64,000 nt of DNA from Rugalucina vietnamica (taxonomy: Eukaryota; Mollusca; Bivalvia; Lucinida; Lucinidae). Both the position numbers and the translations under genes were made by a program. This document shows, piece by piece, positions 1 through 21,259 of this stretch (its first letter is position 1; each line of letters opens with the position of its first letter). The stretch covers positions 51,229,986 to 51,293,985 of the forward strand of contig OZ024875.1 in the NCBI GenBank assembly GCA_964017185.1, given 5' to 3'. The notes under the pieces were generated by a model that was not told the origin of the DNA, ran no database searches, and saw only the letters and a list, made by a program, of their open reading frames with translations.

Positions 1-368
1 TGCCAAAATTGTCAAAAAGTGCGGGGGGATCTGTTCAGGTCAGGTGGTACCGACATCTTAAATAGCTCATGGACCAATTAATATGTTATTACAAAAAAGA
101 GCTATGAAATTTTCTTCGCGTTTTTTGATATGGTCATCGGCGCTTTCGTAACGCACCGGTGGCATTATTGTCTCTTACAAACTTGAAGAAACGAAAGCTT
201 AAAACGCTTATGGTACAGCTGACAAATTATAAGTTATGTTGTATTGCTTTATTTGCTTATGTTGTATTATGTTGTAAGACTTTTTAGCTCGCATATACGA
301 AAGTACAGGAACAGCTATTGCAGTTACCCCGGCGTTGGCGTTGGCATTGGCGTTCGCGTTGCTCATAA

Positions 369-715
369 AAATGTTAAAGTTTTTGGTTAAAGTTTTTATA
401 AGTCTATATCTCTTAAACATATTGATGGATCAAGTGGATACTTTGCATGTTGGTAGATATTTTGTCTAAAGTTTTATGCTGTACCATCATGACCCACCTG
501 CATGATCTTGATGTCAAGGTCACGGACTTAGAAATTTTGCGTTAAAGATTTTGGTAAAAGCTTTTATATGTCTATATCTCTTGAACATGTTGATGGATCA
601 AGTTGATACTTTGCATGGTGGCAGATATTGGCCTGAAGTTTTATGCTGTACCATCACAATCCACATGAGTGACCTTGAGGTCAAGGTCACGGACTTAACA
701 ATTTTGTGTCAAAGT
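369..715 (+). repeat. ~175-bp tandem repeat, two units
   Basis: Two adjacent units (about 369-541 and 542-715) share phrases such as GTCTATATCTCTT, GATGGATCAAGT and TTTTATGCTGTACCATCA. A third, partial unit lies at 3,806-3,905 on the far side of the mariner-like element, which therefore inserted into the array. B carries the same array at about 15,930-16,260. Each unit contains a TCAAGGTCA-type motif. Confidence 0.75.
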
Positions 716-787
716 TTTTGGTTAATACAGGGTGATCCAGAATATCTGATACCATTACAATCTCTAATAATTTTGCTTCAGCAGCAC

Positions 788-1790
788 ATGAATGGATATT
801 GGGCAAATGAAACACAGTTTAAAATGTATAATTTATATTTGATTGTTGTGGTTTGTTATGCTCATGATGTGTTCACAACAATATTACGTTTTTGCTTTGA
901 TGTTTTTTTAACTATCATCACTTAATTAGTCTTGATTAGACTCTTTCACCGTAACGTGTGTAATTTGTATTTTCAACATATAAAAAGGTGTAGAGTGTCG
1001 CGAACAGTAAAGGAATAGTATAAATGACTGCTAGGTAAATAGCAAAATTTATGTGATGACTTTACTTGTTTTGGCTAGTATATTTATCTTGAGAATTTTC
1101 CTGCAGCTGGCTAATCAAATATCCTGTCTGGTGCCTCATTTATCTGGCTGTTGCCAAGGCGATTTCGGAATTTTACAATGTGTAGTGGAATAGTTTTACC
1201 TTAGTTGTGTTCTGTTTGTCGAATAAGCCGGTTGCTTAGATAAGCTGAAATAAATAAATTGCCTCCTTCCATCCCCTCCACCACCTACTTGTTCGCTGAT
1301 GGGTGATGCTGTAAATAGTTTGGTTGCTTACAGTATATATTATGTTTATGCTATTGTGTTATGTTCTTGAAGTATTTGGATCCTATTTTCACATTTTGTA
1401 ACCTTGCTTCTGCTGTGAATTTTAGCTGGCAATTCCTTGAGTAACGAATTTTATCTGCATTATGTCATTTAAGTACAGGCTTGTATTTTGGTCACTTGGC
1501 CGTGGACAATGTGCCCCATATAAAGATAAAATTTCATGGAATGACAGTAGGATATTGGGCAAATGAAACACAGTTTAAAATGTATGATTTATATTTGAAT
1601 GTTGTGGTTTGTTATGCTCATGATGTGTTCACAACAATATTACGTTTTTGCTTTGATGTTTTTTAACTATCATCACTTAATTAGTCTTGATTAGACTCTT
1701 TCACCATAACGTGTGTAATTTGTATTTTCAACTCCCATCTGCGAACATATAGAAATGTGTAGAGTGTCACGATCAGTAAAGGAATAGCAT
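788..1790. mobile_element. ~1-kb insertion with ~230-bp direct repeats, only in copy A
   Basis: Copy B reads straight through this point (CAGCAGCACATAAATTATAC at about 16,324), while A has an extra ~1 kb. The insert starts and ends with a direct repeat: about 795-1,024 and 1,549-1,795, both beginning GGATATTGGGCAAATGA and ending AAGGAATAG. Around 520 bp lies between them. The arrangement resembles a miniature terminal-repeat element, but the ends lack the TG...CA of LTRs and the target duplication is at most 3 bp (CAT). Loss from B is also possible. Confidence 0.55.
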
Positions 1791-2936
1791 AAATTATACT
1801 TAGAAAAACAATTTAGGGATATTGAACTTATTTCGATTTCATTGCAATGAATGTTATTCCCTTTACCAAAATATTTTGAAAATCTGATAGAGCAGCCAAT
1901 TTGCAATCGATCAGAAAGGAAACAAAAGTTCACGGTTTCAATACAGTAATGCGACAAATGTAGCAACCCTCTATACCCAAAAGTAACATGGTTATTTTTT
2001 CTACTGGATTCAGATTGCTGCAATCTTTTTCAGTCTTTTGCCCACCTTTTTAAACCGGCCATGGAAAAGTTTTCATAACCCTGTATCACTCATGAGTCAA
2101 AACAATTGCGATACAATGCCTGCTTATATGCGCTCAGATGGCACCCTTCAGTCAATAAGTTACAAAATTGGCAGCAATAAATTGACACTGGTGTGAAACT
2201 TTGATGTCAAACTCGACTACGAGAGGCAATCATGATTTTGCACACAAAAATGTTTGGTAAACAATCTCCGAAAATAGGATTAATCATCTTCAAACGTTTT
2301 CGAACTTTGGGTATGGAGAATTGTGTCATTTTGGACTGTACTGTACATGGAACATTGAAGTGTGATTAAAATTAAACACACAGTTCGACAGCAGTATTAT
2401 GGAACTGTCGACAACAACTATCTACACAATAAATAATTTCTTCTTAAATGTAAGAAACACGACCAAAATCAAATATCCTTCAATTATTTCTCTAAGTATA
2501 TTTAAATCTATATCAAAGTAATCTACAAAGATTCAAATTTTGTTTAGTATACAACATTAGATACATGTACATACATAACTAATATGTAAAATAGAACTGT
2601 TCAAACAATTTCATAAAAGTTACATTTTAAAAAGCCTTTTATGTCGTCCATATTAGATTACAATGACGTTAAGCTTGTTTTGATAGCTCGCCTTTTCTTG
2701 TGAGGGCACTTAAATGAAAATGCATATTCACCTCAATCAAATACTTTTTGAAAGCCGAAACGCTCTAAGTAATAAATGTTTTGAAAATTAACGCCACACA
2801 TTCCTGCATAAGTAGTAGCAAACATTCACGCGCGGACTGAATGAGACATCGTAATAACATTAATGTGACGTAAAATAACGAATTATGCAAAAAATCAAAT
2901 TGTTTGATCTCTATTATTCAAAATGTCTTTACTTAA

Positions 2937-3668
2937 GGGGATGGGAATTGTCAAAATCTAATACTTGTATAATTTTACCTGTATAAAGAAAAAGGTGATT
3001 TCACCAAAGAGACTAGACATTCTTGAAACATTCTTGTATGGGCCATTCAAACATCGAATACAGATTATTTTTTGCCCAAAAGCCCAACTCTAGAGGGCTC
3101 AGCAACACGTACGCTTATCAGCAGTGCTCAAGTTACTTCCTGGTTTGATTCCATTTTCATCCGTGTGGCATGCTGCGTAAATTTTAGGAAAAGTTATCAC
3201 CATAAACATGATCTCCAACTTCTTGACTATATTCTTTGAAATTATTTCGAACAAAAAGTCAATATTTTGGGAGAAATCATACTTTTTACTATATCTGCTG
3301 TAAAAGGTTTTCACTGCAAATGATAAATAACATATTTTCATCAAGAAAAATGAATCTCTGAGTGGACAAACTTTCAAAGATTGTAGTCAGGCACTTGGAG
3401 AACATGTTTATTGTGACAGCTTCAACAAAATTTTATCCAGCATGGATGAAAACGGAATCAAACCAGGAAGTAACTTTCACACCGCTGATAAGCGTGTTGC
3501 TGATCCCTCCCAAGATGAGTATTTGGGCATAAAACAATCTGTATTTGATGTTTGTATGGCTCATACAAACATTTGTCCACAAGAGCCAATCTTCTTAGAA
3601 AAAAATGCCATTTTTCTTTATACAGGTAAAAATAAAACAAGTATTAGATTTTGACAAATGGCATCCCC
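2937..3668. mobile_element. TTAA-flanked long-hairpin element, copy A
   Basis: Flanked by TTAA at 2,933-2,936 and 3,669-3,672. The left ~240 bp is the inverted complement of the right ~230 bp: for example GGGGATGGGAATTGTCAAAA against the complement of TTTTGACAAATGGCATCCCC, and internal phrases around GGAATCAAACCAGGAAGTAA on both arms. A ~265-bp centre separates the arms. TTAA targeting is characteristic of piggyBac-type elements, although those usually begin CCC, so the family is uncertain. No transposase is visible. Confidence 0.6.
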
Positions 3669-4579
3669 TTAAAGTACTTATTATCATATACCAAACAAAA
3701 TTTGAATTATCACAGCCGACTGTGAATAAAGGTTAATTATGATATGCGTTTGTGGAACAAAATTATGTAAGCTTAAAATGGTATCAGATATTCTGGATCA
3801 TCCTGTATGTAGGATCAAGTTGATGCATTGCATGTTGGTAGATATTGGTCGGAAGTTATATGCTGTACCATCACACCCTAGTGACCTAGAGGTCAAGGAC
3901 ATGGGTCAATTTGAATAGATATAGTGCCAAAGCACAAGTCAGGCAAAGTTACGCTGCCCTGCGACAGCTCTTAATAGTTAGATGTAGTCGAAAGTACTGC
4001 CAGTATTAGTGACTATAAAATAATAGCAAACTAGAGTGACACTGGATAAGTTTTGTGGGAATAAAGGCTACGATAAGTATAATCTGATGATTAGTTGATA
4101 ATTAATTAGAAAGAAACATTAAGCTCTGGATAATTTAGATACAAAACATGATTTGAAGATTTGAAGAATAAAGCAATTGATCTTGTCAGACCTTTTTGTT
4201 GATAAACCAGCTAACATTACGTCATTATTCCGGAGATAATGTTGAACGAAACCTGATACAGCCCACTATCTGATCTTCTCAGCCTCATGGTTATGATTAA
4301 AGACAAACCTTGAAGCAAATCCAATCTGATATACCTGCTAGAAACACGTCATCATTCTGGAGATGTTGTAGAGATTTAACGAAACGAAATGTGATACATT
4401 TAACTATCTGATCTAAGCCTCACGTTGATGTTTAAAGACAAACCTCGAAGCAAATCAAATCAAATATGATACAACGCCTGATAAATATCAATCAGCGGAG
4501 TGTTTTAATTCAGAGGATGGTGCAAGGATATAACCTACCATTTATTGATATATACAACCCTGGTCCAACAGTCGCTGTC

Positions 4580-4632
4580 CGTCTCCATATGACCTTAGTT
4601 GTTGGTGGGACGTTAAACCCCAATCAACCAAC
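4580..4632 (+). mobile_element. 53-bp 5'-truncated SINE stub, copy A
   Basis: A 53-bp insert ending in GGGACGTTAAACCCC followed by a short ATCAACC-type tail is bracketed by a perfect 14-bp direct repeat CAACAGTCGCTGTC (4,566-4,579 and 4,633-4,646). Copy C has the unduplicated site (ACAGTCGCTGTC near 32,685), so this is a real retroposition with target duplication. The tail resembles those of SINE and RTE-type families; the short length prevents a firmer call. Confidence 0.65.
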
Positions 4633-5066
4633 CAACAGTCGCTGTCTCATGTTTGGTTGTGGAAAATAGAACAAAATCTTCCATATTCCTGGTGATTAAA
4701 ATGATTTAAATGCAAATGCTCAAAATGTTTGAAATGGACAGGTCGATATTTAAGGGTCCATTATATATTTTATGGTGTTTTCGAAACGTTGGTAGTAAAG
4801 TCCCCCTCTATATAATGGATATTGACAAAACAACGTTTGTTTAGAAGTGTACATACGAGAAACTGATGTGATGGCGTTTTGTGTCCCTCAGCACTTTTGG
4901 TCATACGGAAACCGATTATGTAAAAAATAAAAAAGCATGTCCTTAGAATCAAAAGAATGATGCACAGAATATGTGACAAGGAAGCCCAGTTACCAAAGCA
5001 ACAGGATGTCATTAAGCCAATCGTATGGGGTTGAGTGGCTTTCATGCACTCTGTCTGTTGTATATA

Positions 5067-5115
5067 AAGGTACAAGTAGGCAACGATCAGGAAAATGCGC
5101 AATCAGACAAAGGAT
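5067..5115 (-). repeat. Short relic of the Penelope-like 3' end
   Basis: GTACAAGTAGGCAACGATCA followed by GGAAAATGCGCAATCAG matches the 3' terminus of the Penelope-like family elsewhere in the window. It is present at the same unit position in B (19,573-19,620) and C (33,893-33,945), so it predates all three copies. Confidence 0.5.
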
Positions 5116-5250
5116 TCAAATGTATCTCTTCAAATTGTATATATGTATATATTGTAAATAATACACTTGTTTATTCATTTTTACAAGCACTATTAAGGAC
5201 CATATGTTAGACTGGCATATTTGCCAAATATGTTATCCTCTTCAAATAAA

Positions 5251-5251
<1 letters not shown>

Positions 5252-5300
<49 letters not shown>
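5252..5300 (+). repeat. (ATT)n microsatellite, copy A
   Basis: Uninterrupted ATT trinucleotide run of about 16 units. The B equivalent at 19,755-19,805 has one interruption (ATAATT). Confidence 0.95.
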
Positions 5301-5301
<1 letters not shown>

Positions 5302-5831
5302 AAATAAAACTTTGTAAGAAAGATTAAAGCAGAAAGCATCTTGTTCTTTGAAAATTTAAAACAAAATCATTCAAAATGAGGTCAGAAGAACAAGCTTTAC
5401 TTAGATTCAAACAGTTAATGCTTTTTAAAACCTCTTGCTCGACTATGGGGGAATTTATTTCTAAGTTGTGCTCAGAAGCTTTGGTAGGATCAAACAGTGG
5501 TAATGTATCATTATCTGAAATAGAGATTGTTTACGTGAAATGTTCAGCAAATGCTTCAAAAACAATTTTTAGGTAGTGGCAGCCCCATTATCATCATACT
5601 TTTTCAATAATTTCCATTATGCTTTGTATCAGGGTTTTTCAAATTTCCAAATTATTAATATATACAATTTTATATTGCTTGAAATGCTTATTTATGTATT
5701 ATATAAGCCTCAATATCTTCATTTAAAGCACAAAAATTTTCAACATTATTCACATATCGACGCAAGTTTTAAAATCTACGGTAATGCCGCTGCATTCAAC
5801 ATTTTTTTAGGATTAGAGAGTTTATAATTAA

Positions 5832-6209
5832 GTACAAGTAGGCAAAGATCAGGAAAAGGCGCAATCAGAAAAAGATTCCCACTCCAAAAACCGAGGTGGG
5901 AAAAAAGTAAATTAACAATCAGGTACTTATACCATGAAAACCTGTCGTAAGCCGAATGAGCAGCTATTTTCCCAATAGGTGGCCACTCAGTTACCTAAAC
6001 TAAAAATATGAAAACTGACATGAGGAGCCAACAGCACAAACAATTTTAAGCACCAAGACATAAAACAACAAGAACCACCACAGAAGTATCGTCTTGGAAC
6101 GGTCAGTAACACAAAGTTACTGGCGGGCTTAAACCGTTTTTACAAGGCCATAACCTCATCCTCAGCTTCTGCAGTGGTTCATAACATTTAGTTAGTTCTT
6201 CGGTCCTCG
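5832..6209 (-). mobile_element. Penelope-like element, 5'-truncated copy (~380 bp), in A
   Basis: On the minus strand this is the 3' terminal ~380 bp of the family whose longest members are at 40.5-44.1 kb. It starts (plus strand) GTACAAGTAGGCAAAGATCA and stops abruptly after GGTCCTCG. Copy C has the empty site (TTTATAATTAACC near 35,450). The insertion is shared by A and B, so it occurred after C diverged and before the A/B duplication. No coding sequence remains. Confidence 0.8.
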
Positions 6210-6964
6210 TTAACCTATTAACCTATTTAGGAGTATTTGTAGTTTCTGGACTCCTACTTTTTTAATCATTCCTGCAGCATCCGCTGCATTATACAATAAT
6301 TAATAGCATTCAGTTGTTTATAGCTCATTGTAGTATGACTTTTTGTTTTTCCTTTGAAGTTTTAGTAACATTAAATCCAATACAAATAAATATCAAAGGA
6401 GGCGGGCCTACATATTGATACACAGGAAGGAGGCGGAATTAAAACAGTACTGTAGCTTCCTGATATTGGAAGTTACAGTACAGATCTGTCAATTTCTGTT
6501 GTGTCATACTACAAGTTAGTTAAAGACCTCGTAGAAAAAATAAGTAAAAACAGCTCGTCTTCGACTCGCTTTATTTTACTTATTTTTTCTACTCGGTACT
6601 TTAACTCTAACATAGTGTCTAAAGTGATATTTTGACTGGAGTCTTACTGTACAACAAACTGGTTTATATCATCGTTATTCAAGTTTTGTAAAATGGTTCA
6701 AGTTAAGACAAACAGCTTTACTGACTGTACTAATTCATGGTTTTCACTGTTTTCTTTGTTAGCTAAATGGTCACAAGATTGACAGGAAAATGAATTATGT
6801 ATGTCACAATGACCATCTCCAAACAACATAGCATCAGATTGATCATAATAATATAAAACTCTATTTGACAGAATTGCTTGACATTTTCAAATTATTCTTT
6901 TTCGGCTATTGCTGAACTTTTTGCAAAAAGAAAATTACAGGGAGAAGGAGTGTTACTTATCTTT

Positions 6965-6966
<2 letters not shown>

Positions 6967-7021
<55 letters not shown>
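6967..7021 (+). repeat. Poly(T) tract, copy A
   Basis: A run of 55 T. The B equivalent is a 51-T run followed by a (GT)n run; copy C lacks it at this position. Confidence 0.95.
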
Positions 7022-7026
<5 letters not shown>

Positions 7027-7839
7027 CCAGATTTCATCCTTGTTCAGCGGAGCGTGACCAAAAGTGTCGTTTTGAATAAATCGCACGTGCATTTTTAACG
7101 AAATTTAATATAGTAAAAGTTCTCAATGCACTTTATGTGGCATAGACACACCTACCTATAGATATATAATCATTCATTAAGATACGATGCAAGGTGTGCT
7201 TAAACGATATGCGATACGAGGACAAACTCTTCTAGCATTTTCAAAAATTGTCTGACCTTTGCAAAGTTGTAAATTTATTTTGACAACACGACAGTACACC
7301 GTAGCTGACGTTAAAAATGGCGCAAAGTAACGTCACGCTTATTCGCTCAGTGAAATTGTTGCATATATAACATAAATATTTTTTTTAAAATTGGCTACAT
7401 AGGCGAGGTGTGTTAGAATTAATTGTTTTGTTTGATTGGTTCCTCGTCAAACTAATTGCCTCTAGAGGCTTATCATGAGTGAGATATCATGATAAACTGA
7501 TAAAACAACTTTAAATCAAGCCTCTTAATGAGTCCTTAGTTCACGCGTGATGGTTTTTCAAAATAGCCTTAAACTTAATTGACCTGAATATATAATTTGC
7601 ATGCATCATTTTTTTCCATAAAAAACATACTATTTAAAATTATAGGCATAGTGGATCTGAGTCAACGTTCTCTAATATCAAGTATTTCTTGGTAGGCGTT
7701 TTAGATGTCTTAAAATGAGTGAAATAAAGTCATTAAGCATTCAACGAGAGTGAAATTAAGATGATCATTATAAAGCTGAGACTGTTCTGATAGACAAAGT
7801 TTATATCGTTATCATTTATGACACAAACAAAATGGTAAT

Positions 7840-8085
7840 TGCACATCAGGAAACATGTCCGTGCAATATATACCCACTTAAAACTATTTTTATTTAGCAA
7901 AATTGGGTTGTGCAGGGGTATACCTATTTTTCTTATTTTTGCTTCAAAACATAGATTGTGTGTACCCACAATCAATGTTTTGAGCCAAGATATTACAAAT
8001 TTCAAACGTTTTCCAATGTTTTCAATTTTTTGCTTGCGAAAAAATTTCTGTATATTGCATGGGCACGTTTTTGTAATGAAGCATC
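7840..8085. repeat. Diverged copy of the 41-bp-TIR foldback family
   Basis: It keeps the signature centre (AAAACATAGATTGTG with a nearby inverted partner) and a right end reading CTGTATATTGCATGGGCACG and TTTTTGTAATG, close to the TIR of the better copy at 11,400-11,614. The left end (CATGTCCGTGCAATATATAC) is more worn. Confidence 0.45.
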
Positions 8086-8640
8086 AGCAAATTTCCCTGT
8101 GTGCAGAATCCTAATTTTTGCAAAGACCTGGTCTTCTTGATCTTCATTACAGTTGTTTTAACTGTTGTCTTTTTCCCGCATCATATTTTGGAAACCATTC
8201 ATATTGATGGGATCAGTTCTATTGTTTTATTCTATTTTTCTCGTGTACTGAATATATATCTAGTGTTGGGTAAAAGTTCCATAAAATTGAGGCAACGCCT
8301 CGACATGGCCATACCTGCTTATGGTTTTGTCAACAATTAATAGATATTGGACACGTTATCGCGTCATCTACCTTGTTACGACATCTCTGGAATGGGTATT
8401 TAAAGCTTCTAATGTGTCAATGGCAGGGTTTTCAGTCTTTCTTTTCTGATGTTTCCTGGGTATCTGTCGTTTTCATATAATCATGCCAGCAATTATGTAA
8501 TAAGTATAACAAAATGATTAAATACATGATCTTCTTAAATAACCCTGTCACAACATCTCAGTTCTTTCATTGACAGTTTAGAAGGACCGTCAGTTCCGTT
8601 GTATGAATTCGTTCATCACAAGTTAAAAGCAAGCAACACA

Positions 8641-8815
8641 TTACGAAAACTCGCCCATGTTATATACAGAGATTTTTTTTGAAAAGCAAAAATAGAAAAT
8701 TTAATTGGAGAAATTTTGATTTTTTTTTTATTTTTGTCAAAACATAGATTGTGGGTACACGGTGAGGCGGTTCTAACTAGTACTCACAATCTATGTTTTG
8801 GAGCGAAACAAAAAT
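8641..8815. repeat. Partial copy of the 41-bp-TIR foldback family
   Basis: Starts ATTACGAAAACTCGCCCATG, carries the family centre AAAACATAGATTGTGGGTAC and GAGGCGGTTCTAAC, then an inverted partner CACAATCTATGTTTT. The right TIR is absent. Equivalent sequence occurs in B (near 22,925) and C (37,470-37,610). Confidence 0.5.
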
Positions 8816-9925
8816 AGGCATGCCCCATGCAAACCCCACTTTTACTATATAAAAGTGGGGTATAATGGGGTATGTTTTACACGGACGTGTTATCCTGATG
8901 AAATAATTCAGATATTACGTGATGTAATTCATTTGAAGTATGATACTCATTATATTGTTTTTGAAGCAAAGCATGTTTTGTGGTTCTAGTAATGAAAATA
9001 TCTCATCTTCACTTCCTTTCAAAGGCTAATATTACATGAGGTGGCATTGTAAAGATGGCGGAATTTATATCAAAAAATATATCTTAAGCAGAAGTTGTAT
9101 CTGAATTATAAGGATAGTCTCCCTGTACAAAACTTTAACTTAATAGTATATTTTTCTGTTGCTTAATCATTTGAAGATGCGAAAATATTATGAGAATTGA
9201 CAACTTTTAAAAATTGATATCTACTGTCTTTACACCATCTTCCAGAAACTGCATTTTTCAAAATCTCACACTTCTTAAAGAAAAATATGACCAAGACTCA
9301 CAAAAGTACATTCCAAAAGTCTAAAAAAGTGCCACAAAAATTGAAAATCGGTTAACAAATAAATATTTTATTCCAGAAAATAATTTTGAATAGGGTTTTT
9401 CCATTGTAAAAATGTCAGCAAGGGAAGTAACTATTTTCAAAAAAAAAAAATAATAAAAAATAATAATTGCTTATTTTTCATTTACCGAAACAAATTTGCA
9501 TTTTATGCATAACTGAGCGCCAAACTCTTAAACCTATTCCACAGATTTGTTTGATTTTTAAATTTAAGATGTTTGGATTACATCCCTTACACATGAATAA
9601 AGGCCTATTCAATTTTTTTGCCATTTATAATTTATTATTGAACCGATTTTCAAACTTTTGTGGCACAATTTCACACTTTGGGTTGCAAAAAGATAGACAT
9701 AGTCATATTTTTCTTGTGGTGTTTCAGAAAAGTGAGACTTTTAAGAAAAAAAAAAAAAAGGTTTCTGAAAGATGGTTTGTATATATTGTACGTTAAGAAT
9801 CATCTTCTTAACAGTTTTTTGATTATTTGGCCCCTTTGGGAATATGTGTCTTTGATTTAGACTACACAGATGTAAATTCTTGAAATTGCTGCAAAATGTC
9901 TGGCTTTCGCTGTCAGTTTAGTTAA

Positions 9926-9971
9926 GGGTCACTCATGAAGGTTCATTACCCGAAATTGTACAATATGGCCC
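9926..9971 (+). ncRNA. Hammerhead ribozyme, unit A1, core mutated
   Basis: Same fold as the intact motif at 10,274-10,319, but the first core strand reads CTCATGA instead of CTGATGA. The G at the position corresponding to G5 is lost. G5 is invariant in active hammerheads, so this unit should not cleave. The second core strand GAAA and all stems are kept. Confidence 0.7.
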
Positions 9972-10273
9972 ATCTTCTCGCTTTGAATGTTTTACTGCTT
10001 CCAAAGGATCTAACTTGCTATTACTGCAGCTGGTGTTGTGCCGTGTGGCGGCCCTAAAATGTCTCCCCGTACATTATCCATAGTGCAGATTATATTTTTC
10101 TTTTGATCCTTTGGGATCAGTGAATATATTTGGAGTATGTCAAATATATTGTACGTTAACAGTTTTTTGATTATTTGGCCCCTTTGGGAATATGTGTCTT
10201 TGATTTAGACTACACAGATGTAAATTCTTGAAATTGCAGCAAAATGTCTGGCTTTCGCTGTCAGTTTAGTTAA

Positions 10274-10319
10274 GGGTCACTGATGAAGGTTCATTACCCG
10301 AAATTGTACAATATGGCCC
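10274..10319 (+). ncRNA. Hammerhead ribozyme, unit A2, core intact
   Basis: Read in order: stem I 5' strand GGGTCA; core CTGATGA; stem II GGT with loop TCATT and ACC, closed by an A-C mismatch next to the core; core GAAA; a short stem III TTG-TA-CAA next to the A-T pair; cleavage-site A at 10,313; stem I 3' strand TGGCCC. Stem I pairs over 6 bp (one G-U). All invariant core bases are present. A tiny stem III and an open stem I match hammerheads of metazoan retrozymes and Penelope-like elements. The weak point is the A-C pair at stem II position 10.1-11.1, usually G-C, which may slow cleavage. Assigned by folding by hand. Confidence 0.8.
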
Positions 10320-10651
10320 ATTTTCTCACTTTGAATGTTTTTTACTGCTTCCAAAGGATCTAACAATTATTTTTATTTGCTATTACTGCAGCTGGTGTTG
10401 TGCCGTGTGGCGGCCCTAAAAAGTCTCCCCGTACATCATCCATAGTGCAGATTATATTTTTCTTTTGATCCTTTGGGATCAGTGAATATATTTGGAGTAT
10501 GTCAAATATATTGTACGTTAAGAATCATCTTCTTAACAGTTTTTTTGATTATTTGGCCCCTTTGGGAATATGCGTCTTTGATTTAGACTACACAGATGTA
10601 AATTCTTGAAATTGCAGCAAAATGTCTGGCTTTCGCTGTTAGTTTAGTTAA

Positions 10652-10697
10652 GGGTCACCCATGAAGGTTCATTACCCGAAATTGTACAATATGGCCC
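10652..10697 (+). ncRNA. Hammerhead ribozyme, unit A3, core mutated
   Basis: The core strand reads CCCATGA in place of CTGATGA, two changes including the invariant U4 and G5, so it should be inactive. Stems I-III and GAAA are unchanged. Confidence 0.7.
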
Positions 10698-11399
10698 ATC
10701 TTCTCGCTTTGAATGCTTTACTGCTTCCAAAGGATCTAACAATTATTTTTATTTATAGACAGTATAGACATTATGTCCAACGTGCAGAGTCGTTCAAATC
10801 GACAACTTTGATCAATGGAATATGTCGCAGTATGATTTTCTGCGTTCATTGTAATCGCATTTATTGTCCCTGGTGAGCTTTTGTTATCCAATATTGCACA
10901 GCGGCATAGCCGTATCACTTCCTTCCTTAGATTGCAAAGAAACTATCTTTTTCCGTATATCAAGGACATATAATGAACGCGCTGTGAAATACAAGGTGAA
11001 TGAACAATAAACCAAGATTTTAGAGCGCCAAATGGCATGTGTAATATATCTCAATATTAATATCCCTTCGGTGTAATATAGAATCAGTCCAGCTGAGCTG
11101 GAATCTATTTAGAATATTGTCACTCATGATTCAGGGACACATTAGGAGATCTCATATAAAGTTGTTTTATCAGGTTTTCATATCTCACTTATGATAAATC
11201 TCTTGTGTCAATTGGTTTTGCGTAGAATTAACCAAACAAGAAGCTTAAACAATTGTATCGTCGACGAACAAACGGAAACTGTATGGAAGTCGACGGTCCA
11301 AGACGACTGTTTTAGAAGACATTGTTATTTCTGGTACTAATTTGGAACACTCATCCGGATTATGTTGATGACGTGGTTTGCTGATCCCACTTAGTGTTG

Positions 11400-11614
11400 G
11401 TCACACCATTACGAAAACATGCCCATGCAATGTACAGAGATTTTTTTTAAGTTTTAAGAATGAAAATTTTCAGTAGAAAATATTTGATATTTTTCTTATT
11501 TTTCTCAAAACATAGATTATGGTTACACGTTAGAACCGCCTCGGCGATTTTCAGTTAAATAAACTTAAAACAGTCTCTGTACATTGCATGGGCATGTTTT
11601 CGTAATGGTGTGAC
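11400..11614. mobile_element. Foldback element (MITE-like) with 41-bp inverted repeats, copy A
   Basis: The left end (11,400-11,440, starting GTCACACCATTACGAAAACA) is the exact or nearly exact inverted complement of the right end (11,574-11,614). The centre carries AAAACATAGATTATGG and TAGAACCGCCTCGGCG, shared with related partial copies at 7.8 and 8.6 kb. No coding capacity and no clear target duplication. B has it at 25,660-25,873. Confidence 0.8.
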
Positions 11615-11783
11615 TTTGTTGTCTGCACTATATCATCGTCGGTAAGTATCGTTTTGGGTCGCATCAACAGAAAACTACCTGCGTTCTCAATACTGCGATC
11701 CTATGACGGTAACAATATTAGACCACGTGCTGCACATGGCACTGGAAAAATGTGTGAAGCAAACAGGCACCTACAAAACTTCA

Positions 11784-11873
11784 TCACGTGAGTTCAAGCG
11801 GCACGGTCAAAGTATTATCCTATAGAACAAGCAGCAGCACCTTTTCTAGTGTTTACAAAACTTTGTCACGTGA
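11784..11873 (+). promoter_or_regulatory. 82-bp upstream repeat with TCACGTGA E-boxes, two units (gene A)
   Basis: The palindrome TCACGTGA occurs at 11,784-11,791 and 11,866-11,873, exactly 82 bp apart, inside a repeated sequence (GTTCAAGCGGCACGGTCAAA, then AACAAGCAGCAGCACC). The last box lies 289 bp before the sulfotransferase ATG. A further CACGTG is at 11,724-11,729. CACGTG flanked by T and A is the class bound by USF and MITF/TFE-type bHLH-zip factors. A TATA-like stretch follows at about 11,958-11,970. A regulatory role is inferred from motif and position. Confidence 0.5.
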
Positions 11874-12161
11874 GGTCAAGCGGCACGGTCAAAGTAATAG
11901 CACTGTTTTATACCAGCACATTATCCAAACAGCCTAGCACTTTTTTGTCTCCATTTATTTATATATATTTGCGTGATTTTGCATTTTGGACATTAAATTG
12001 TCGAGCGCATACATCTAAGAAAGCAAGAAGTATATTTTATTTGTATTTATTGTTAATTAATAACATATTTAATAACTGGCATTTATTGTCAAATCAATAA
12101 AAATATCTTCTTGATAAGCAGATACTTGGTGACGGAGTCGTCAGTATTCAAACTTTGGAGA

Positions 12162-13556
12162 ATGTCTCGAAAATTAAAGCAGATTTGTATTGTAGCGATT
12201 CTCCTTTGTTTTGTCGTGTTAGCCCGATATTTTATGTGTTTGTCTGGTAAATCAAAATGTGAATTCAGCCATATAGAGAAGAATGATCTACGGAACCGTG
12301 ATAGGTTTGAGAAAGGATATGAATTTCCTGATTCCAAAAGCAAAGACGTTAAAAGTACAGATGTTGCGCAGCTGCGAAAACAATCAACCGAGAAAGGAAA
12401 GGAAACGTTGAAGCAAACGATGGTAACAAATAAAACATCTGGGGTCATGAGACAACATGGGGCTGTGACTAAGTATGACATTATTTTGAGCGCGTACCAA
12501 CACAGTGGCTCGTCAGTTACAGGGAAATTATTCGGTAATCGCGAGGATACCTTCTACTTTTATGAGCCACTTTGGGAAATAGCAACGCACACCTTCTATA
12601 AAGGCAAATGTCTGTTTTGTAGAGATTTCAAGTACACAAATAACGATAAATGTATAAAAGTCAACAAAACATGTAACATTAACGCGTCAGTATTAGGAAA
12701 ACTCACTTCCGAGCTTACTGCCAACGGAGAAGATCGCACACCGGAGTCAAAAATTTGGAATGCATATCATAAAACACTTGAAGAATCTGTGACGTTTTTG
12801 CAAGGTATTTTCGACTGTAAGTTCCTTCAGTTTGCAGATTTTTTCTACGATCCGACATTGCACAGTCCTAGGTCACTGCATATGTATAAACTGTTTTCTA
12901 AAAGGGTAAGATGGGGCGATGTAGCTGAATGCAAAGAACCACAGAACATGCATTTAAAATCGTGCTTGGAATTGGCTGAGAAAACGTGCAACAAGGCAGA
13001 CCACAGGGTTATTAAGTCATTGAGAATGACTCTTGATAATGTTATACCACTGTTAGGAGCGAATCCGCGAATAAAAGTAGTTCATCTTTTTCGTGACCCA
13101 CGGGGAATCTTTAATTCTAGGGTTGGTGACGAAATGTTACATCCCCTAGACGATCAGAAATTACTGCGTCTGATGAGTGCGATTAAAACTACGTGTGACA
13201 GACATCGTATTGACTTACAGGCCACTGTAATGCTTAGTGTTAAGTATCCAGATAGGTTTAAGGCCATCCAGTACGAAAACCTGTATGCTGAACCAATGAT
13301 AAAAGGTGTGAAAGAGTTGTATGAATTCGCAGGCATGGATTACGGCAGTGAACAGCAACTAGAAAAACAACTGGACTCACAGATTAGAAAGGAATCAGAA
13401 TTTCATCCCTTCAAATATAGGACAACATTACCATGGAGTGTGGTTGCCATGTTCAACAAGGAGTGTTCGGACGTTCTGGATAGATTAGGGTATACACGTT
13501 TCAAGAACAAATCGCATCTGGAAGACCTATCGCAGTCAGGGTTTGCTTTGATGTGA
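12162..13556 (+). CDS. Carbohydrate (Gal/GlcNAc/GalNAc-6-O type) sulfotransferase, copy A
   Basis: Intact 464-residue single-exon frame for a Golgi type II membrane enzyme that moves sulfate from PAPS to a glycan. A short basic tail (MSRKLK) precedes a signal anchor at residues 8-27, then a stem region to about 100. The PAPS 5'-phosphosulfate loop is at 112-121 (YQHSGSSVTG) and the 3'-phosphate site at 306-320 (VVHLFRDPRGIFNSR). The C-terminal W425...LGY444 arrangement fits the CHST1/3/6-like family. The usual Arg before the first loop's S/T-G-S-S is His here. N-glycosylation sequons are at 90, 168, 174 and 449. The ATG is chosen because it immediately precedes the anchor, has A at -3, and upstream in-frame codons lack an ATG. 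The acceptor sugar cannot be told from sequence. Confidence 0.9.
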   Translation: MSRKLKQICIVAILLCFVVLARYFMCLSGKSKCEFSHIEKNDLRNRDRFEKGYEFPDSKSKDVKSTDVAQLRKQSTEKGKETLKQTMVTNKTSGVMRQHGAVTKYDIILSAYQHSGSSVTGKLFGNREDTFYFYEPLWEIATHTFYKGKCLFCRDFKYTNNDKCIKVNKTCNINASVLGKLTSELTANGEDRTPESKIWNAYHKTLEESVTFLQGIFDCKFLQFADFFYDPTLHSPRSLHMYKLFSKRVRWGDVAECKEPQNMHLKSCLELAEKTCNKADHRVIKSLRMTLDNVIPLLGANPRIKVVHLFRDPRGIFNSRVGDEMLHPLDDQKLLRLMSAIKTTCDRHRIDLQATVMLSVKYPDRFKAIQYENLYAEPMIKGVKELYEFAGMDYGSEQQLEKQLDSQIRKESEFHPFKYRTTLPWSVVAMFNKECSDVLDRLGYTRFKNKSHLEDLSQSGFALM

Positions 13557-14290
13557 AATCGCGAACTTGAGTATCAAGTTAAATAGACACTAATATTTCA
13601 CTACGTTTCATGACTTTCATCAACTGTTTCATATGCGGAAATTCGCTAGATTCGATATTTTACCTTATCCCTGCAAGAAATGTGATGTTTATTTAGATAA
13701 GGCCTGGAACGGTTATGCCATAAATCGGCAAAGCCGGCCACAGGTTGTGACAAATCACAGCCTTTCATACTTTAAGAAAGCCGGTCATCGGGGTTTCCGA
13801 CCAGGTCTGACACAACCCGACCAGTACAGTCACAGAAGAAAGCTAGCCGCTGAAATTTCGGATTTCAGAAGAAGAGAAAATGTACTATCCATGTAGCGAA
13901 AACAATTGCGCTTATCAGCTTCGCAGTTTCCCATGCGGTGGCTCATATTCGCCTTTTCTTTAAATCTATTTCAAGTTGTGCCGTCGAGCATATGAGTTGG
14001 CACAGGCTAACCACAGAGGAGCTCACGTGTTTAGATCCATAGATGACATTTATATCGGGCCCTGGAGAGGTTCTGCTACCGGGCGTGTGACACTCGAGCA
14101 TGTGCCAGGGAGACCCACCGAGATACGGGCGGGGCAGGGAGATGTAGTGCGGTTTCTGAATAACTGGGACGGATATACCGGGATTGGTACCAAACAAAAC
14201 CACACCGGACTTATACCTATGTTTAAAATAAAAAAAGTGTGTTTAAAATGCACAATTATTCCAGCAATATAAACAGCAATATAAACATTT
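13557..14290 (+). other. 3' flank of gene A, likely 3' UTR and degraded repeats
   Basis: No gene seen. About 13,781-13,946 resembles a worn GAGCCGC-type inverted-repeat element: it shares TTCCGACCAGGTCTGACACA, the AGAAGAAG block and a GCGGTGGCTCAT end with the better copy at 14,291. Small open frames are conserved in B, but the differences do not respect codons. Confidence 0.4.
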
Positions 14291-14490
14291 GAGCCGCTGC
14301 ATGAGAAAACCAACAATTTGGGTTCCGACCAGGTCTGACACAAACCGGCATGTACACTCACAGAAAATAGTTAGAAACTTGAAAATTTGGATTTTAGAAG
14401 AAGAAGGACTGTACTATATCTGTTTAGCGAAAACAAAGGCGCCTTTGGTTTCGCATAATGCAGATTGTTGGTTTTCTGATTCAGCGGCTC
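14291..14490. mobile_element. GAGCCGC-type MITE, copy A
   Basis: 200-bp element bounded by inverted ends GAGCCGCTGCATGAGAAAAC and the complement of GTTTTCTGATTCAGCGGCTC. Internal blocks GACCAGGTCTGACACAAACC and GCGAAAACAAAGGCG are shared with copies at 28,620, 50,028 and 63,350. I recall GAGCCGCG...ATGAGAAAACC ends as common in bivalve genomes, but that is memory, not a search. Confidence 0.7.
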
Positions 14491-14734
14491 GTTTAGTATT
14501 TTCCGCGTGGAAAATAACGCAAAGTCTTAAGGACTTTCTTCTTGACACATTTGCCTTGAGTTTAGAAAATATGCCAAACCTTTATCTAATTAGAGATAAA
14601 AGTGGGTACTGCTTTTAAGCTGAAACTTTGAAACACCATACCTTTAATGATGCTTTATAGATTGAGGCTGTGCATGGAGTATCAAAATATCACAACGAAA
14701 TGCATTTGAGTTTAAATCATGTCCATGCATATTG

Positions 14735-14845
14735 TTTGCTGGGGCGCGGGTCTAATGACCCGGCAGATCAACAGACCGCTGTGGTGCCGTGTTCTTGAGC
14801 AAAACGCATTTACTCTAAATGGTACTGGTTGATACCCATGAAGCT
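14735..14845 (+). repeat. Possible tRNA-derived SINE relic, copy A
   Basis: GCGGGTCTAATGACCCGGCA resembles a decayed tRNA B-box arm. It is followed by GGTGCCGTGTTCTTGAGCAA and later TGATACCCATGAAG, the order seen in widespread SINE bodies. B has a similar stretch at about 29,060-29,165. The resemblance is weak. Confidence 0.3.
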
Positions 14846-15241
14846 ATGAGAACGTCCTTACATGAATTTTTTTTTGGGTGGGACTTTAAACTACAGAAAC
14901 AGAAGCATATATAGAGTGATAACTCATTGGGTTGAACAGTGTTTCTTTAAGAGCATTGCTTGCATTTACCTTTTTATTTTGCTTTATGATTGAGTAATGG
15001 CTTTTCCAAGGTAATTAGAACCTGTTTCTCACTTTCGATGGGGACTTGAAAAGCGACTCAAATGTTTTCAGATAACGCGACGGACCTCTGCTTCTTGGAA
15101 ATTAACTAACCAGTAGGGCATCCAATGGGGATTTAAAAGACCTCAGTTAAAGACACAGACAATAACAGTGGGATTCAAATCGAGAAGTCGAACAAGACCA
15201 GTTAAAATTATAATAATTTAATTCAGAGTTCTTCACAAGCA

Positions 15242-15621
15242 GCGGCGCCCGGCGAATTTGCCGACTACTCCAGAGAGTGGGGCTGGCTACTTTTTACCGA
15301 TCTTGAAGTTTTTCCTATTCTACTTTCGTTTTTGTTACAAAAAGCGTGTTCAGAGACTTATGGCCTTTCGATTCAGACTCGGGTGCATTAACCACTAAAC
15401 CATCATGCTACTCTGTCCAAGATGTTCCCTCGTGTCCTTCGACAACTGGGATCAAAGCGCATCGAAATCATTGCGATATTACCGTGACAAGAATTTATAA
15501 TTTATAATGGCATTGATAATGGTTGGATTCACTTCATACACTGTACGGCTGTGGTTCAACTTATCAAGCCACGATCACTTGCAATAAAACATACTTAATA
15601 ATAACAAATACATATTCTGAC
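15242..15621. other. Unique spacer between copies A and B
   Basis: Not repeated elsewhere in the window. On the minus strand, 15,376-15,416 reads like a tRNA A-box region (ATGGTTTAGTGGTTAATGCA), perhaps an old tRNA-derived fragment. No matching B-box at the proper distance, no gene. Confidence 0.4.
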
Positions 15622-16271
15622 AAATTAATATGTTATTACAAAAAAGAGCTATGAAAATTTCTTCGCGTTTTTGATATGGTCATCGGCGCTTTCGTAACGC
15701 ACCGGTGGCATTATTGTCTCTTACAAACTTGAAGAAACGAAAGCTTAAAACGCTTATAGTACAGCTGACAAATTATAAGTTATGTTGTATTGCTTTATTT
15801 GCTTATGTTGTATTATGTTGTAAGACTTTTTAGCTCGCATTTACGAAAGTACAGGAACAGCTATTGCAGTCACCCCGGCGTTGGTGTTGGCGTTGGCGTT
15901 GGCGTTGGCGTTCGCGTTGCTCATAAAAATGTTAAAGTTTTTGGTTAAAGTTTTTATAAGTCTATATCTCTTAAACATATTGATGGATCAAGTGGATACT
16001 TTGCATGTTGGTAGATATTGGTCTAAAGTTTTATGCTGTACCTGCATGATCTTGATGTCAAGGTCACGGACTTAGAAATTTTGCGTTAAAGTTTTTGGTA
16101 AAAGCTTTTATAAGTCTATATCTCTTGAACATGTTGATGGATCAAGTTGATACTTTGCATGGTGGCAGATATTGGCCTGAAGTTTTATGCTGTACCATCA
16201 CAACCCACATGGGTGACATTGAGGTCAAGGTCACGGACTTAACATTTTTGTGTTAAAGTTTTTGGTTAATA

Positions 16272-18332
16272 CAGGGTGATCCAGAATATCTGATACCATT
16301 ACAATCTCTAATAATTTTGTTTCAGCAGCACATAAATTATACTTAGAAAAACAATTGAGGGATATTGAACTTATTTCGATTTCATTGCAATGAATGTTAT
16401 TCCCTTTACCAAAATATTTTGAAAATCTGATAGAGCAGCCAATTCGCAATCGATCAGAAAGGAAACAAAATTTCACGGTTCCAATACAGTAATGCGCCAA
16501 ATGTAGCAGCCCTCTATACCCAAAAGTAACATGGTTATTTTTTCTACTGGATTCAGATTGCTGCAATCCTTTTCAGTCTTTTGCCAACCTTTTTAAACCG
16601 GCCATGGAAAAGTTTTCATGACCCTGTATCACCCATGAGTCAAAACGATTGCGATACAATGCCTGCTTATATGCGCTCAGATGGCACCCTTCAGTCAATA
16701 GGTTACAAAATTTGCAGCAATAAATTGACACTGGTGTGAAACTTTGATGTCAAACTCGACTACGAGAGGCAATCATAATTTTGCACACATAAATGTTTGG
16801 TAAACAATCTCCGAAAATAGGATTAATCATCTTCAAACGTTTTCGAACTTTGGGTATGGAGAATTGTGTCATTTTGGACTGTACTGTACATGGAACATTG
16901 AAGTGTGATTAAAATTAAACACACAGTTCGACAGCAGTATTATGGAACTGTCGACTACAACTATCTACACAATTAATAATTTCTTCTTAAATGTAAGAAA
17001 TACGACCAAAATCAAATATCCTTCAATTATTTCTCTAAGTATATTTAAATCTATATCAAAGTAATCTACAAAGATTCAAATTTTGTTTAGTATACAACAT
17101 TAGATACACACACAACTAATATGTAAAATAGAACTGTTCAAACAATTTCATAAAAGTTACATTAAGGCCTTTTATGTCGTCCATATTGGATTACAATGGC
17201 GTCAAGCTTGTTTTGATAGCTCGCCTTTTCTTGTGAGGGCACTTAAATGAAAATTCACCTCAATCAAATACTTTTTGAAAGCCGAAACGCTCTAATTAAT
17301 AAATGTTTTGAAAATTAACGCCACATATTCCTGCATAAGTAGCAGCAAACATTCACACGCGGACTGAATGAGACATCGTAATAACATTAATGTGACGTAA
17401 AATAACGAATTATGCAAAAAATCAAATTGTTTGATCTCTATTATTCAAAATGTCTTTACTTAAGGGAATGCCAATTGTCAAAATCTAATACTTGTATAAT
17501 TTTACCTGTATAAAGAAAAAAGGCGATTTTACCAAAGAGACTAGACATTCTTGAAACATTCTTGTATGGGCCATTCAAACATCGAATACAGATTATTTTT
17601 TGCCCAAAAGCCCAACTCTAGAGGGCTCAGCAACACGTACGCTTATCAGCATTGCTCAAGTTACTTCCTGGTTTGATTCCATTTTCATCCGTGTGGCATG
17701 CTGCGTAAATTTTAGGAAAAGTTATCACCATAAACATGATCTCCAATTTCTTGACTACATTCTTTGAAATTATTTCGAACAAAAAGTCAATATTTTGGGA
17801 GAAATCATACTTTTTACTATATCTGCTGTAAAAGGTTTTCACTGCAAATGATAAATAACATATTTTCCTCAAGTAACATGAATCTCTGAGTGGACAAACT
17901 TTCAAAGATTGTAGTCAGGCACTTGGAGAACATGTTTATTGTGACAGCTTCAACAAAATTTTATCCAGTATGGATGAAAACGGAATCAAACCAGGAAGTA
18001 ACTTTCACAGCGCTGATAAGCGTGTTGCTGATCCCTCCCAAGATGAGTATTTGGGCATAAAACAATCTGTATTTGATGTTTGTATGGCTCATACAAACAT
18101 TTGTCCACAAGAGCCAATCTTCTTAGAAAAAATGCCATTTTTCTTTATACAGGTAAAACTAAAACAAGTATTAGATTTTGACAAATGGTATCCCCTAAAA
18201 GTGCTTATCATCATATACCAAACAAAATTTGAATTATCACAGCCGACTGTGAATAAAGGTTTATTATGATATGCGTTTGTGGAACAAAATTATGTAAGCT
18301 TAAAATGGTATCAGATATTCTGGATCATCCTG
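16272..18332. mobile_element. Mariner-like non-autonomous element, copy B
   Basis: Same TIRs and TA flanks (16,270-16,271 and 18,333-18,334) as the element at 728-3,805, but 2.06 kb because it lacks the inserted ~1-kb block. No transposase frame. Confidence 0.65.
17464..18195. mobile_element. TTAA-flanked long-hairpin element, copy B
   Basis: Duplicate of 2,937-3,668. The left flank TTAA is intact (17,460-17,463); the right flank has mutated to TAAA. Confidence 0.55.
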
Positions 18333-19067
18333 TATGTAGGATCAAGTTGATGCATTGCATGTTGGTAGATATTGGTCGCCATCACACCCTAGTGACCTAG
18401 AGGTCAAGGTCATGGGTCAATTTGAATAGATTTAGTGCCAAAGCACAAGTCAGGCAAAGCTACGCTGTCCTGTAACAGCTCTTATTAGTTAGATGTAGTC
18501 GAAAGTACTGCCAGTATTAGTGACTATAAAATAATAGCAAACAAGAGTGACACTGGATAAATTTTGTTGGAATAAAGGCTACAATATGTATAATCTGATG
18601 ATAAGTTGATAATTAATTAGAAAGAAACATTAAGCTCTGGATAATTTAGATACAAAACATGATGTGAAGATTTGAAGAATAAAGCAATTGATCTTGTCAG
18701 ACCTTTTAGTGATAAACCAGCTAACATTACGTCATTATTCCGGAGATAATGTTGAACGAAACCTGATACATCCCACTATCTGATCTTCTCAGCCTCATGG
18801 TTATGATTAAAGACAAACCTTGAAGCAAATCCAATTTGATATACCTGCTAGAAACACGTCATCATTCTGAAGATGTTAAACGAAATGTGATAAATCTGAT
18901 CTAAGCCTCACGGTGATGTTTAAAGACAAACCTCGAAGCAAATCAAATCAAATATGATATAACGCCTGATAAATATCAATCAGCGGCGTGTTTTAATTCA
19001 GAGGATGGTGCAAGGATATAACCTACCATTTATTGATATATACAACCCTGGTCCAACAGTCGCTGTC

Positions 19068-19120
19068 CGTCTCCATATGACCTTAGTTGTTGGTGGGACG
19101 TTAAACCCCAATCAACCAAC
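19068..19120 (+). mobile_element. 53-bp SINE stub, copy B
   Basis: Same insertion as 4,580-4,632, with the 14-bp target duplication intact at 19,054-19,067 and 19,121-19,134. Confidence 0.65.
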
Positions 19121-19753
19121 CAACAGTCGCTGTCTCATGTTTGGTTGTGGAAAATAGAACAAAATCTTCCGTATTCCTGGTGATTTCTAATGGTGAAGTA
19201 AAATGATTTAAATGCAAATGCTCAAAATGTTTGGAATGGACAGGTCGATATTTAAGGGTCCATTATATATTTTATGGTGTTTTCGAAACGTTGGTAGTAA
19301 AGTCCCCCTCTATATAATGGATATTGACAAAACAACGTCTGTTTAGAAGTGTACATACGAAAAACTGATGTGATTGCGTTTTGTGTCCCTCAACAGTTTT
19401 GGTCATACGGAAACCGATTATGTAAAAAATAAAAAAAAGCATGTCCTTAGAATCAAAAGAATGATGCACAGAATATGTGACAAGGAAGCCCAGTTATCAA
19501 AGCAACAGGATGTCATTAAGCCAATCGTATGGGGTTGAGTGGCTTTCATGCACTCTGTCTGTTGTATATAAAGGTACAAGTAGGCAACGATCAGGAAAAT
19601 GCGCAATCAGAAAAAGATTCAAATGTGTCTCTTCAAATTGTTTATATGTATATGTTGTAAATAATACACTTGTTTATTCATTTTTACAAGCATTATTAAG
19701 GACCATATGTTAGACTAGCATATTTGCCAAATATGTTATCCTCTTCAAATAAA

Positions 19754-19795
<42 letters not shown>

Positions 19796-20344
19796 ATTAT
19801 TATTAAATAAAACTTTGTATGAAAGATTAAAGCAGAAAGCATCTTGTTCTTTGAAAATTTAAAACAAAATCATTCAAAATGAGGCCAGAAGAACAAGCTT
19901 TACTTAGATTCAAACAGTTAATGCTTTTTAAAACCTTTTGCTCGACTATGGGGGAATTAATTTCTAAGTTGTGCTCAGAAGCTTTGGTAGGATCAAACAG
20001 TGGTAATGTATTATTATCTGAAATAGAGATTGTTTACGTGAAATGTTCAGCAAATGCTTCAAAAACAATGTTTAGGTAGTGGCAGCCCCATTATCATCAT
20101 ACTTTTTCAATAATTTCCATTATGCTTTGTATCAGGGTTTTTCAAATTTCCAAATTATTAATATATACAATTTTATATTGCTTGAAATGCTTATTTATGT
20201 ATTATATAAGCCTCAATATCTTCATTTAAAGCACAAAAATTTTCAACATTATTCACATATCGTCGCAAGTTTTAAAATCTACGGTAATGCCGCTGCGTGT
20301 GTCTACATTCAACATTTTTTTAGCATTAGAGAGTTTATAATTAA

Positions 20345-20722
20345 GTACAAGTAGGCAAAGATCAGGAAAAGGCGCAATCAGAAAAAGATTCCCACTCCAA
20401 AAACCGAGGTGGGAAAAAACTAAATTAACAATCAGGTCCTTATACCATGAAAACATGTCGTAAGCTGAATGAGCAGCTATTTTCCCAATAGGTGGCCACT
20501 CAGTTACCTAAACTAAAAATATGAAAACTGACATGAGGAGCCAACAGCACAAACAATTTTAAGCACCAAGACATAAAACAACAAGAACCACCACAGAAGT
20601 ATCGTCTTGGAACGGTCAGTAACACAAAGTTACTGGCGGGCTTAAACCGTTTTTACAAGGCCATAACCTCACCCTCAGCTTCTGCAGTGGTTCATAACAT
20701 TTAGTTAGTTCTTTTGTCCTCG
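20345..20722 (-). mobile_element. Penelope-like element, 5'-truncated copy in B
   Basis: Duplicate of the insertion at 5,832-6,209, same truncation point and same flanks, so it was copied with the segment and is not an independent insertion. Confidence 0.8.

Positions 20723-21170: not shown

Positions 21171-21172
<2 letters not shown>

Positions 21173-21256
<84 letters not shown>
21173..21256 (+). repeat. Poly(T) followed by (GT)n, copy B
   Basis: 51 T (21,173-21,223) then about 16 GT units (21,224-21,256). Copy A has only the poly(T), so the dinucleotide tract expanded after the duplication. Confidence 0.95.

Positions 21257-21259
<3 letters not shown>

Follow-up and report, generated by a model that had tools for sequence, protein, structure and literature searches.

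In animals, retrozymes naturally supply circular RNA that is made by ribozymes, which raises the question of how these RNAs return to DNA. According to the accessible portion of a review, the repeats of metazoan retrozymes show no conserved motif that points to an autonomous partner (PMC7761336). A tandem array in a 64,000-nucleotide stretch of the Rugalucina vietnamica genome (the window) leads to the same question. An earlier note, made from the sequence alone, had described it as a retrozyme-like element beside a sulfotransferase gene, with a hammerhead motif in each unit. We ask here whether this motif is a hammerhead, what the copies in the window can do, and how members of the family enter the genome.

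The array comprises about 2.6 tandem units of about 375 bp. Alignment places in-register copies at 9,815, 10,163 and 10,541, i.e., at spacings of 348 and 378, in agreement with the periodicity of about 350-375 bp described before. The unit has a GC content of 0.36-0.39 and is non-coding, as had been stated, with no open reading frame of at least 110 amino acids (stop to stop) within 9,779-10,754. Its features are as follows.

9779-10754, plus strand: array A, about 2.6 tandem retrozyme units; on the right it stops at the 3' end shared by the family, ...TTTTTATTT
9926-9971, plus strand: hammerhead motif of unit A1; core CTCATGA with G5 changed, expected to be inactive
10274-10319, plus strand: hammerhead motif of unit A2; core CTGATGA intact, A.C at the base of stem II, predicted cut after 10313
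10652-10697, plus strand: hammerhead motif of unit A3; core CCCATGA, expected to be inactive, predicted site after 10691
10692-10754, plus strand: tail of 63 nt, from the cut site to the common 3' insertion end, holding the conserved ACTGCTTCCAAAGGATCTAA
10341-10363, plus strand: 5' arm of a candidate hairpin around the start site, 83% complementary to 10464-10486
10464-10486, plus strand: 3' arm of the candidate hairpin, partner of 10341-10363

The 46-nt motif is indeed present in each unit, and all three units of array A share stem I (GGGTCA/TGGCCC), the GAAA and the short stem III (ATT-GTAC-AAT) with its palindrome ATTGTACAAT. The core CTGATGA, which had been ascribed to every unit, is found in unit 2 only, and unit 1 has CTCATGA and unit 3 CCCATGA. 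The cut predicted after 10,313 therefore falls in the one unit of array A with an intact core. A mismatch that the earlier note did not mention, A.C at the base of stem II, recurs in each unit of both arrays in the window, six in total. A descriptor scan of the window, which allowed at most two core mismatches and required at least five pairs in stem I and at least three in stem II, returned seven motifs, three of them with an intact core. In comparison, 30 Markov-1 versions of the window yielded two motifs in total on both strands, each with two core mismatches.

Copies that had been missed before are a second array at 24,053-25,045 and a single copy at 44,766-44,989. The remaining features around the retrozyme copies are listed below.

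24053-25045, plus strand: array B, a duplicate of array A by segmental duplication, with the unit types in identical order
24193-24238, plus strand: motif B1, core CTCATGA
24568-24613, plus strand: motif B2, core CTGATGA, with further changes in stem II (ACTC) and stem III (ACTGTACAAT)
24943-24988, plus strand: motif B3, core CCCATGA, AAAA in place of GAAA, palindrome of stem III retained (ATGGTACCAT)
12057-13556, plus strand: sulfotransferase open reading frame (PF00685), a bystander
26454-27911, plus strand: duplicated sulfotransferase open reading frame, adjoining array B
44766-44989, plus strand: single 5'-truncated retrozyme with an intact motif at 44889-44934, within a 21-bp minisatellite
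49674-49825, plus strand: diverged retrozyme piece with a broken core, inside a larger dispersed repeat
63753-63945, minus strand: second diverged piece, like that at 49674-49825; tail present, core one base short

Arrays A and B are not independent insertions, because about 14 kb, including the sulfotransferase gene and the retrozyme array, have been duplicated (72-15240 against 15619-29459, mostly 93-97% identical). Unit B3 has a dead core, yet its stem III shows a compensated change from ATTGTACAAT to ATGGTACCAT. A chance open reading frame of 126 amino acids (23747-24127) extends into the start of array B. The sulfotransferase gene that had been noted beside the array is recognised by its PF00685 match; its open reading frame starts about 1.3 kb downstream of array A and is incidental to it. 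Among 16 related proteins, the two that carry a species name are both from Mya arenaria, at 29-30% identity. An inverted repeat of 68 nt (11400-11467/11547-11614, 85% complementary, 79 nt apart) also lies downstream of array A, with a sub-threshold match to a plant microRNA model on the minus strand.

The single copy at 44.8 kb is absent from the corresponding place of a related repeat, at locus L099, in which the number of 21-bp units also differs. The stretch 44117-50647 matches L099 5586-9901 piecewise at 97-98% and is a large dispersed repeat that contains the 21-bp minisatellite and an old retrozyme piece. For a 736-bp part of this repeat, 40 of 5,142 candidate places were scored and showed 92-100% identity.

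Whether the motif is a hammerhead was addressed with the covariance-model search that the earlier note had proposed, and this gave no above-threshold hammerhead match in the window, an outcome that the earlier note had named as one that would count against its reading. Rfam returned no hammerhead at gathering score and none at E<=1 over the whole window, none at E<=10 on arrays A and B, and none on eight loci of the assembly that were chosen by the core. In one of 17 loci that were scanned, a diverged relative (L097) aligns to the whole length of RF00163, in the position and on the strand predicted for the motif, with 23.1 bits against a gathering score of 34 (E 0.36 in 51 kb, 0.0059 in 851 bases). 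Because L097 matches the complete model where the hammerhead is predicted, though below the gathering score, we read the missing Rfam match as a probable limit of the Rfam model for this hammerhead variant. Thus, Rfam can miss such variants.

The assembly to which the window belongs (1.09 Gb, 47 contigs) contains the family in large numbers. A 30-mer from the middle unit of array A occurs at 4,178 places with at most two mismatches, and its reversed control at none. A 27-mer from another part of the unit, the Y part, occurs at 11,971 places with at most three mismatches, with one place for its reversed control. The descriptor GGGTCACTGANGA-N10-16-GAAA-N4-12-TATGRYCCA puts no constraint on stems II and III; the assembly contains 9,280 exact matches to it and none to its reversed form. 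A 24-mer of the core has no match in a viral contig collection. To avoid selection on the core, 30 loci, some of them overlapping, were picked by the Y-part 27-mer, and they include subfamilies that are about 72% identical to the unit of the window. From 27 of these 30 loci, 60 cores could be projected; CTGANGA...GAAA is kept in 50 and damaged in ten. Position 7, a tolerant position of the hammerhead core, is C in 22, T in 20 and A in eight of the 50 kept cores. Arrays with two or three descriptor-fitting motifs were found 13 times elsewhere, holding 29 of the first 100 descriptor places listed, with spacings of 362-418 bp. The array at L021 and L093 alternates between two kinds of unit, one about 82% and the other 91-92% identical to the query, a pattern that multiplication of a heterodimer would produce.

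Covariation was analysed in the 54 distinct sequences among the first 100 descriptor places listed, all of which lie on contig 1. Stem I is uninformative here, because the search pattern fixes most of it. In stem II, both sides change in three of the four pairs, and the variants across subfamilies comprise AGGT/ACCC, GGGT/ACCC, GACT/AGTC and GGCT/AGCC, plus minor ones; in 17 of the 54 sequences the base of stem II lacks a standard pair. Stem III and its loop form a palindrome of 8 or 10 nt, chiefly ACCGCGGT, ATTGTACAAT, ATTGCGCAAT and ACCATGGT, and 39 of the 54 sequences are palindromic or paired at every step. Pairing is kept in 95.4% of cells, against 9-47% when the partner strand is slid. 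Double-changed cells number 32 against 13.6 (sd 2.6) after shuffling, and the covariation score is 0.224 against 0.131, although the significance is overstated because the shuffles treat related sequences as independent, a bias that affects neither the slid control nor the kinds of swap. Two of the five measures did not exceed the shuffles; no excess was found for pairs changed on both sides (3 against 2.9) or for further pair types (10 against 9.8).

The predicted fold of one complete unit RNA is better than its shuffles (z -3.06, none of 100 as good). For the A2 motif, a competing hairpin has the lowest energy, -8.0 kcal/mol against -5.1 for the hammerhead fold. This is weak evidence against activity, because in the gamma motif the hammerhead fold is not the minimum either (-9.2 against -13.1). 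The family shows the core CUGANGA...GAAA, three stems and the open stem I of a type I hammerhead. On these comparisons, the motif of the window is a predicted type I hammerhead in which swaps in stems II and III keep the pairing.

Metazoan non-LTR retrozymes are defined by many dispersed copies, a GC content under 50% and tandem repeats, 150-450 bp long, that carry type I hammerheads. The family described here, with its unit of about 375 bp, GC of 0.36-0.39 and 9,280 descriptor places, has these properties, and there is no LTR pair, because there is no fixed 5' end. Metazoan non-LTR retrozymes in general also lack a PBS and a PPT, and their RNA, highly self-paired, occurs as linear and circular units. 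The earlier assignment to the mollusc type of metazoan retrozymes is borne out by the dispersal of thousands of copies, by covariation in stems II and III, and by unit length, low GC and lack of coding. The family is a member of a kind already published for Mytilus: M. galloprovincialis contains about 5000 type I hammerheads in repeats of 350-390 bp (Cervera and de la Pena 2020, PMC7229834). Both families combine type I hammerheads with tandem repeats of about 350-390 bp, thousands of copies, low GC, and the absence of coding capacity and LTRs, a likeness of description. For the mussel, RNA activity and circles were shown, and most of its retrozyme RNA is circular, in contrast to the DNA-level view of the family taken here. 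A fixed 3' end with even 5' ends, as reported below, is not described in the accessible portion of that paper (PMC7229834).

Retrozymes of axolotl and newt resemble the family in their unit size and in a weak stem III closed by a palindromic tetraloop (PMC7229834). Their hosts are unrelated to the clam, in which dimeric action is suggested solely by the palindromes. Plant LTR retrozymes likewise have hammerheads in direct repeats, no coding capacity and circular RNA, but their hammerheads are of type III and they have 4-bp target duplications, a PBS and a PPT (PMC7761336), different from the type I hammerhead and the one-sided fixed end found here.

What the copies in the window can do is a separate matter. 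Array A goes back to an old insertion, now broken in part, of a small mobile element that encodes no protein and has thousands of copies in the genome. Circles of 350-375 nt had been expected from it, an expectation that is not supported by one intact core of three and a mismatched stem II base. Array A is unlikely to release a unit, because release needs two working ribozymes and only one of its cores is intact. In array B, one of three cores is intact as well, with further changes in the stems of B2. The mismatch at the base of stem II is not necessarily fatal, since the axolotl hammerhead HHR_Amex2 has a U.U mismatch at this place and nonetheless cuts, better as a dimer (PMC7229834). Judged by their sequences, the arrays of the window are probably degenerate and the release of unit-length RNA is improbable. 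The local array may be a fossil, and arrays whose motifs are intact occur at other places in the assembly.

The ends of the insertions provide information on how the family is copied. With four subfamily queries, 109 insertions were mapped at loci L001-L098 and in three stretches of the window, and 85 of them end within -6 to +8 nt of one 3' site, ...TTTTTATTT. This common end is shared by 47/56, 22/24, 10/16 and 6/13 insertions of the four subfamilies, and by 57/71 insertions at loci chosen by the core, 25/35 at loci chosen by the Y part and 3/3 in the window, of which two are duplicates by descent; the other 24 of the 109 have other 3' ends. Subfamilies differ in the distance from the predicted cut to this site downstream of it, which is 61-66 nt overall and 63 nt in the subfamily of the window. 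A uniform distribution over the unit fits the 5' ends of the 85 insertions (KS p 0.44) but not the 3' ends of all 109 (p about 1e-30). Insertions longer than one unit make up 41 of the 85, and the longest has 1,865 nt. Only two of these 41 multi-unit insertions start within 5 nt of the cut, where about 1.2 are expected, i.e., there is no pile-up. Target duplications, which in metazoan non-LTR retrozymes exceed 4 bp when they occur, reached at least 5 nt in 17 of the 109 insertions and in 95 of 1,077 swapped-flank controls, hardly above background.

These ends bear on the nature of the template. A cut linear monomer copied from the 3' site would give at most about 63 nt, but one of the 85 insertions is 65 nt long and the other 84 are at least 99 nt, among loci that were picked by the core or the Y part with strong matches required, so that short insertions are invisible. 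Likewise, multimeric templates with a cut 5' end would pile up 5' ends at the cut, and none are piled. Thus, the end pattern argues against a cut linear monomer as the template of the mapped insertions, and copying most likely began internally on a template that was circular or an uncut multimer. The combination of a fixed 3' end with even 5' ends is new here and points to a fixed internal start of reverse transcription, as in Penelope-like elements; retrozyme end mapping of this sort does not appear among the titles and abstract openings listed from an open-licence library.

In PAc, a Penelope-like element of Anolis, the reverse transcriptase initiates within the RNA, at a stem-loop beyond the hammerhead, and for this reason the genomic copies carry a tail (PMC11167929). 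The family is like PAc in its proposed start downstream of the cut, in the tail and in the occurrence of tandem or partial-tandem copies. The positions are alike, not identical, with a start about 85-92 nt past the cut in PAc, as calculated from the text of that paper, against 61-66 nt here. Penelope-like elements encode a reverse transcriptase and a GIY-YIG endonuclease and the retrozyme unit encodes neither. The unit is not itself a Penelope-like element, because it is too short and non-coding, and its likeness is confined to the place of the 3' end. In the candidate hairpin around the start site (10341-10363/10464-10486), 95.4% of cells are paired in 23 sequences. Its covariation is weakly above the shuffles, 43 of 500 of which score as high, and it therefore stays a suggestion.

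The most likely cycle is the following. Intact arrays elsewhere in the genome would be transcribed, and the hammerheads would cut the RNA into units, perhaps as dimers formed via the palindromic stem III, as the covariation suggests. A host ligase may close the units into circles, as published for other animals. A borrowed reverse transcriptase, for which a Penelope-like enzyme is the best candidate, would then begin on RNA circles or uncut multimers, at the one internal position 61-66 nt beyond the cut, and run over part of a unit to several units before stopping at random. The insertion ends are observed, and the template and enzyme are proposed to account for them. A more specific version, which we put forward tentatively and with somewhat less than even expectation, is that a Penelope-like reverse transcriptase recognises a conserved hairpin in the tail, starts about 63 nt past the cut on the circle and runs a random distance round it.

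Other explanations have to be weighed against this reading. The missing Rfam match in the window, the broken cores of the outer units and the mismatched stem II base would all suit an ordinary satellite-like repeat or SINE with a 46-nt motif that resembles a hammerhead by chance, and the conserved 30-mer by itself would fit any repeat family. We consider such a coincidence highly improbable in view of the covariation of stems II and III in loci and lists that were not selected on those stems, the low motif counts in the Markov-1 controls and the full-model match to RF00163 in L097. A SINE as such, which would have a fixed 5' end and a pol III head derived from a small RNA, is also rejected by the uniform 5' ends and by the absence of a tRNA in 9700-10900, and the same uniformity rules out a plant LTR retrozyme, which is bounded by two LTRs. 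Non-autonomous Helitrons or Helentrons, DNA transposons that carry satellite arrays, and LTR-type TRIMs are reported in bivalves, and in the portions of that literature available such carriers are known to contain arrays that have few units and end in a truncated copy. Helitrons and TRIMs have defined ends on both sides, whereas here only the 3' end is fixed and the 5' ends of the 85 insertions are uniform, which leaves very little room for a carrier of this kind.

Closer to the proposed cycle is the idea that the ribozyme is not needed for spread, i.e., that reverse transcription acts on the uncut tandem transcript, and the hammerhead has its role in some other step or has no role at all. Insertions that run through the cut site without a pile-up of 5' ends would agree with this, and hammerhead mutants of Anolis PAc inserted equally well in vitro, with unprocessed RNA as the main substrate (PMC11167929). 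Nonetheless, the core and the paired stems are kept across subfamilies that are about 72% identical, which suggests selection on cleavage, and the published RNA of the mussel retrozyme is mostly circular (PMC7229834). A dispensable ribozyme is therefore an alternative of some weight, albeit an unlikely one. It is very likely that the locus as a whole represents a metazoan non-LTR retrozyme insertion whose type I hammerhead has a short, palindromic stem III, with the cycle proposed above and degenerate copies in the window.

No partner element for the retrozyme was found among the candidates examined in the window. The reverse transcriptase-like open reading frame 42344-41145 on the minus strand, which may be Penelope-like, was rejected: it has no Pfam match even at E 5, one weak and unrelated PDB match and no similarity to the retrozyme unit. 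A repeat of 750 bp at 49.6 kb was also rejected, as it is part of the larger dispersed repeat that carries the old retrozyme piece. Matches to SECIS_1 above the gathering score (39 bits against 35) lie at 41103-41170 and 43290-43357 on the minus strand, the former at the 3' end of the reverse transcriptase-like frame. The SECIS_1 repeat also occurs at L005, L001, L069 and L091 (27.7-39 bits), and the six stretches align; the predicted SECIS-like hairpin is carried by a dispersed repeat. The window further contains the two open reading frames of a non-LTR retrotransposon, at 51927-52955 and 55960-59439, the first presumably ORF1-like and the second matching RVT_1 (PF00078).

The fixed 3' end, the conserved tail and the even 5' ends together give a concrete candidate start site for the return of retrozyme RNA to DNA and point to a mechanism of the Penelope type. 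If the tentative version with hairpin recognition on a circle is true, the genome would preserve a record of how a borrowed enzyme copies an RNA circle in rolling fashion, and both the start site and the recognition element would be named.
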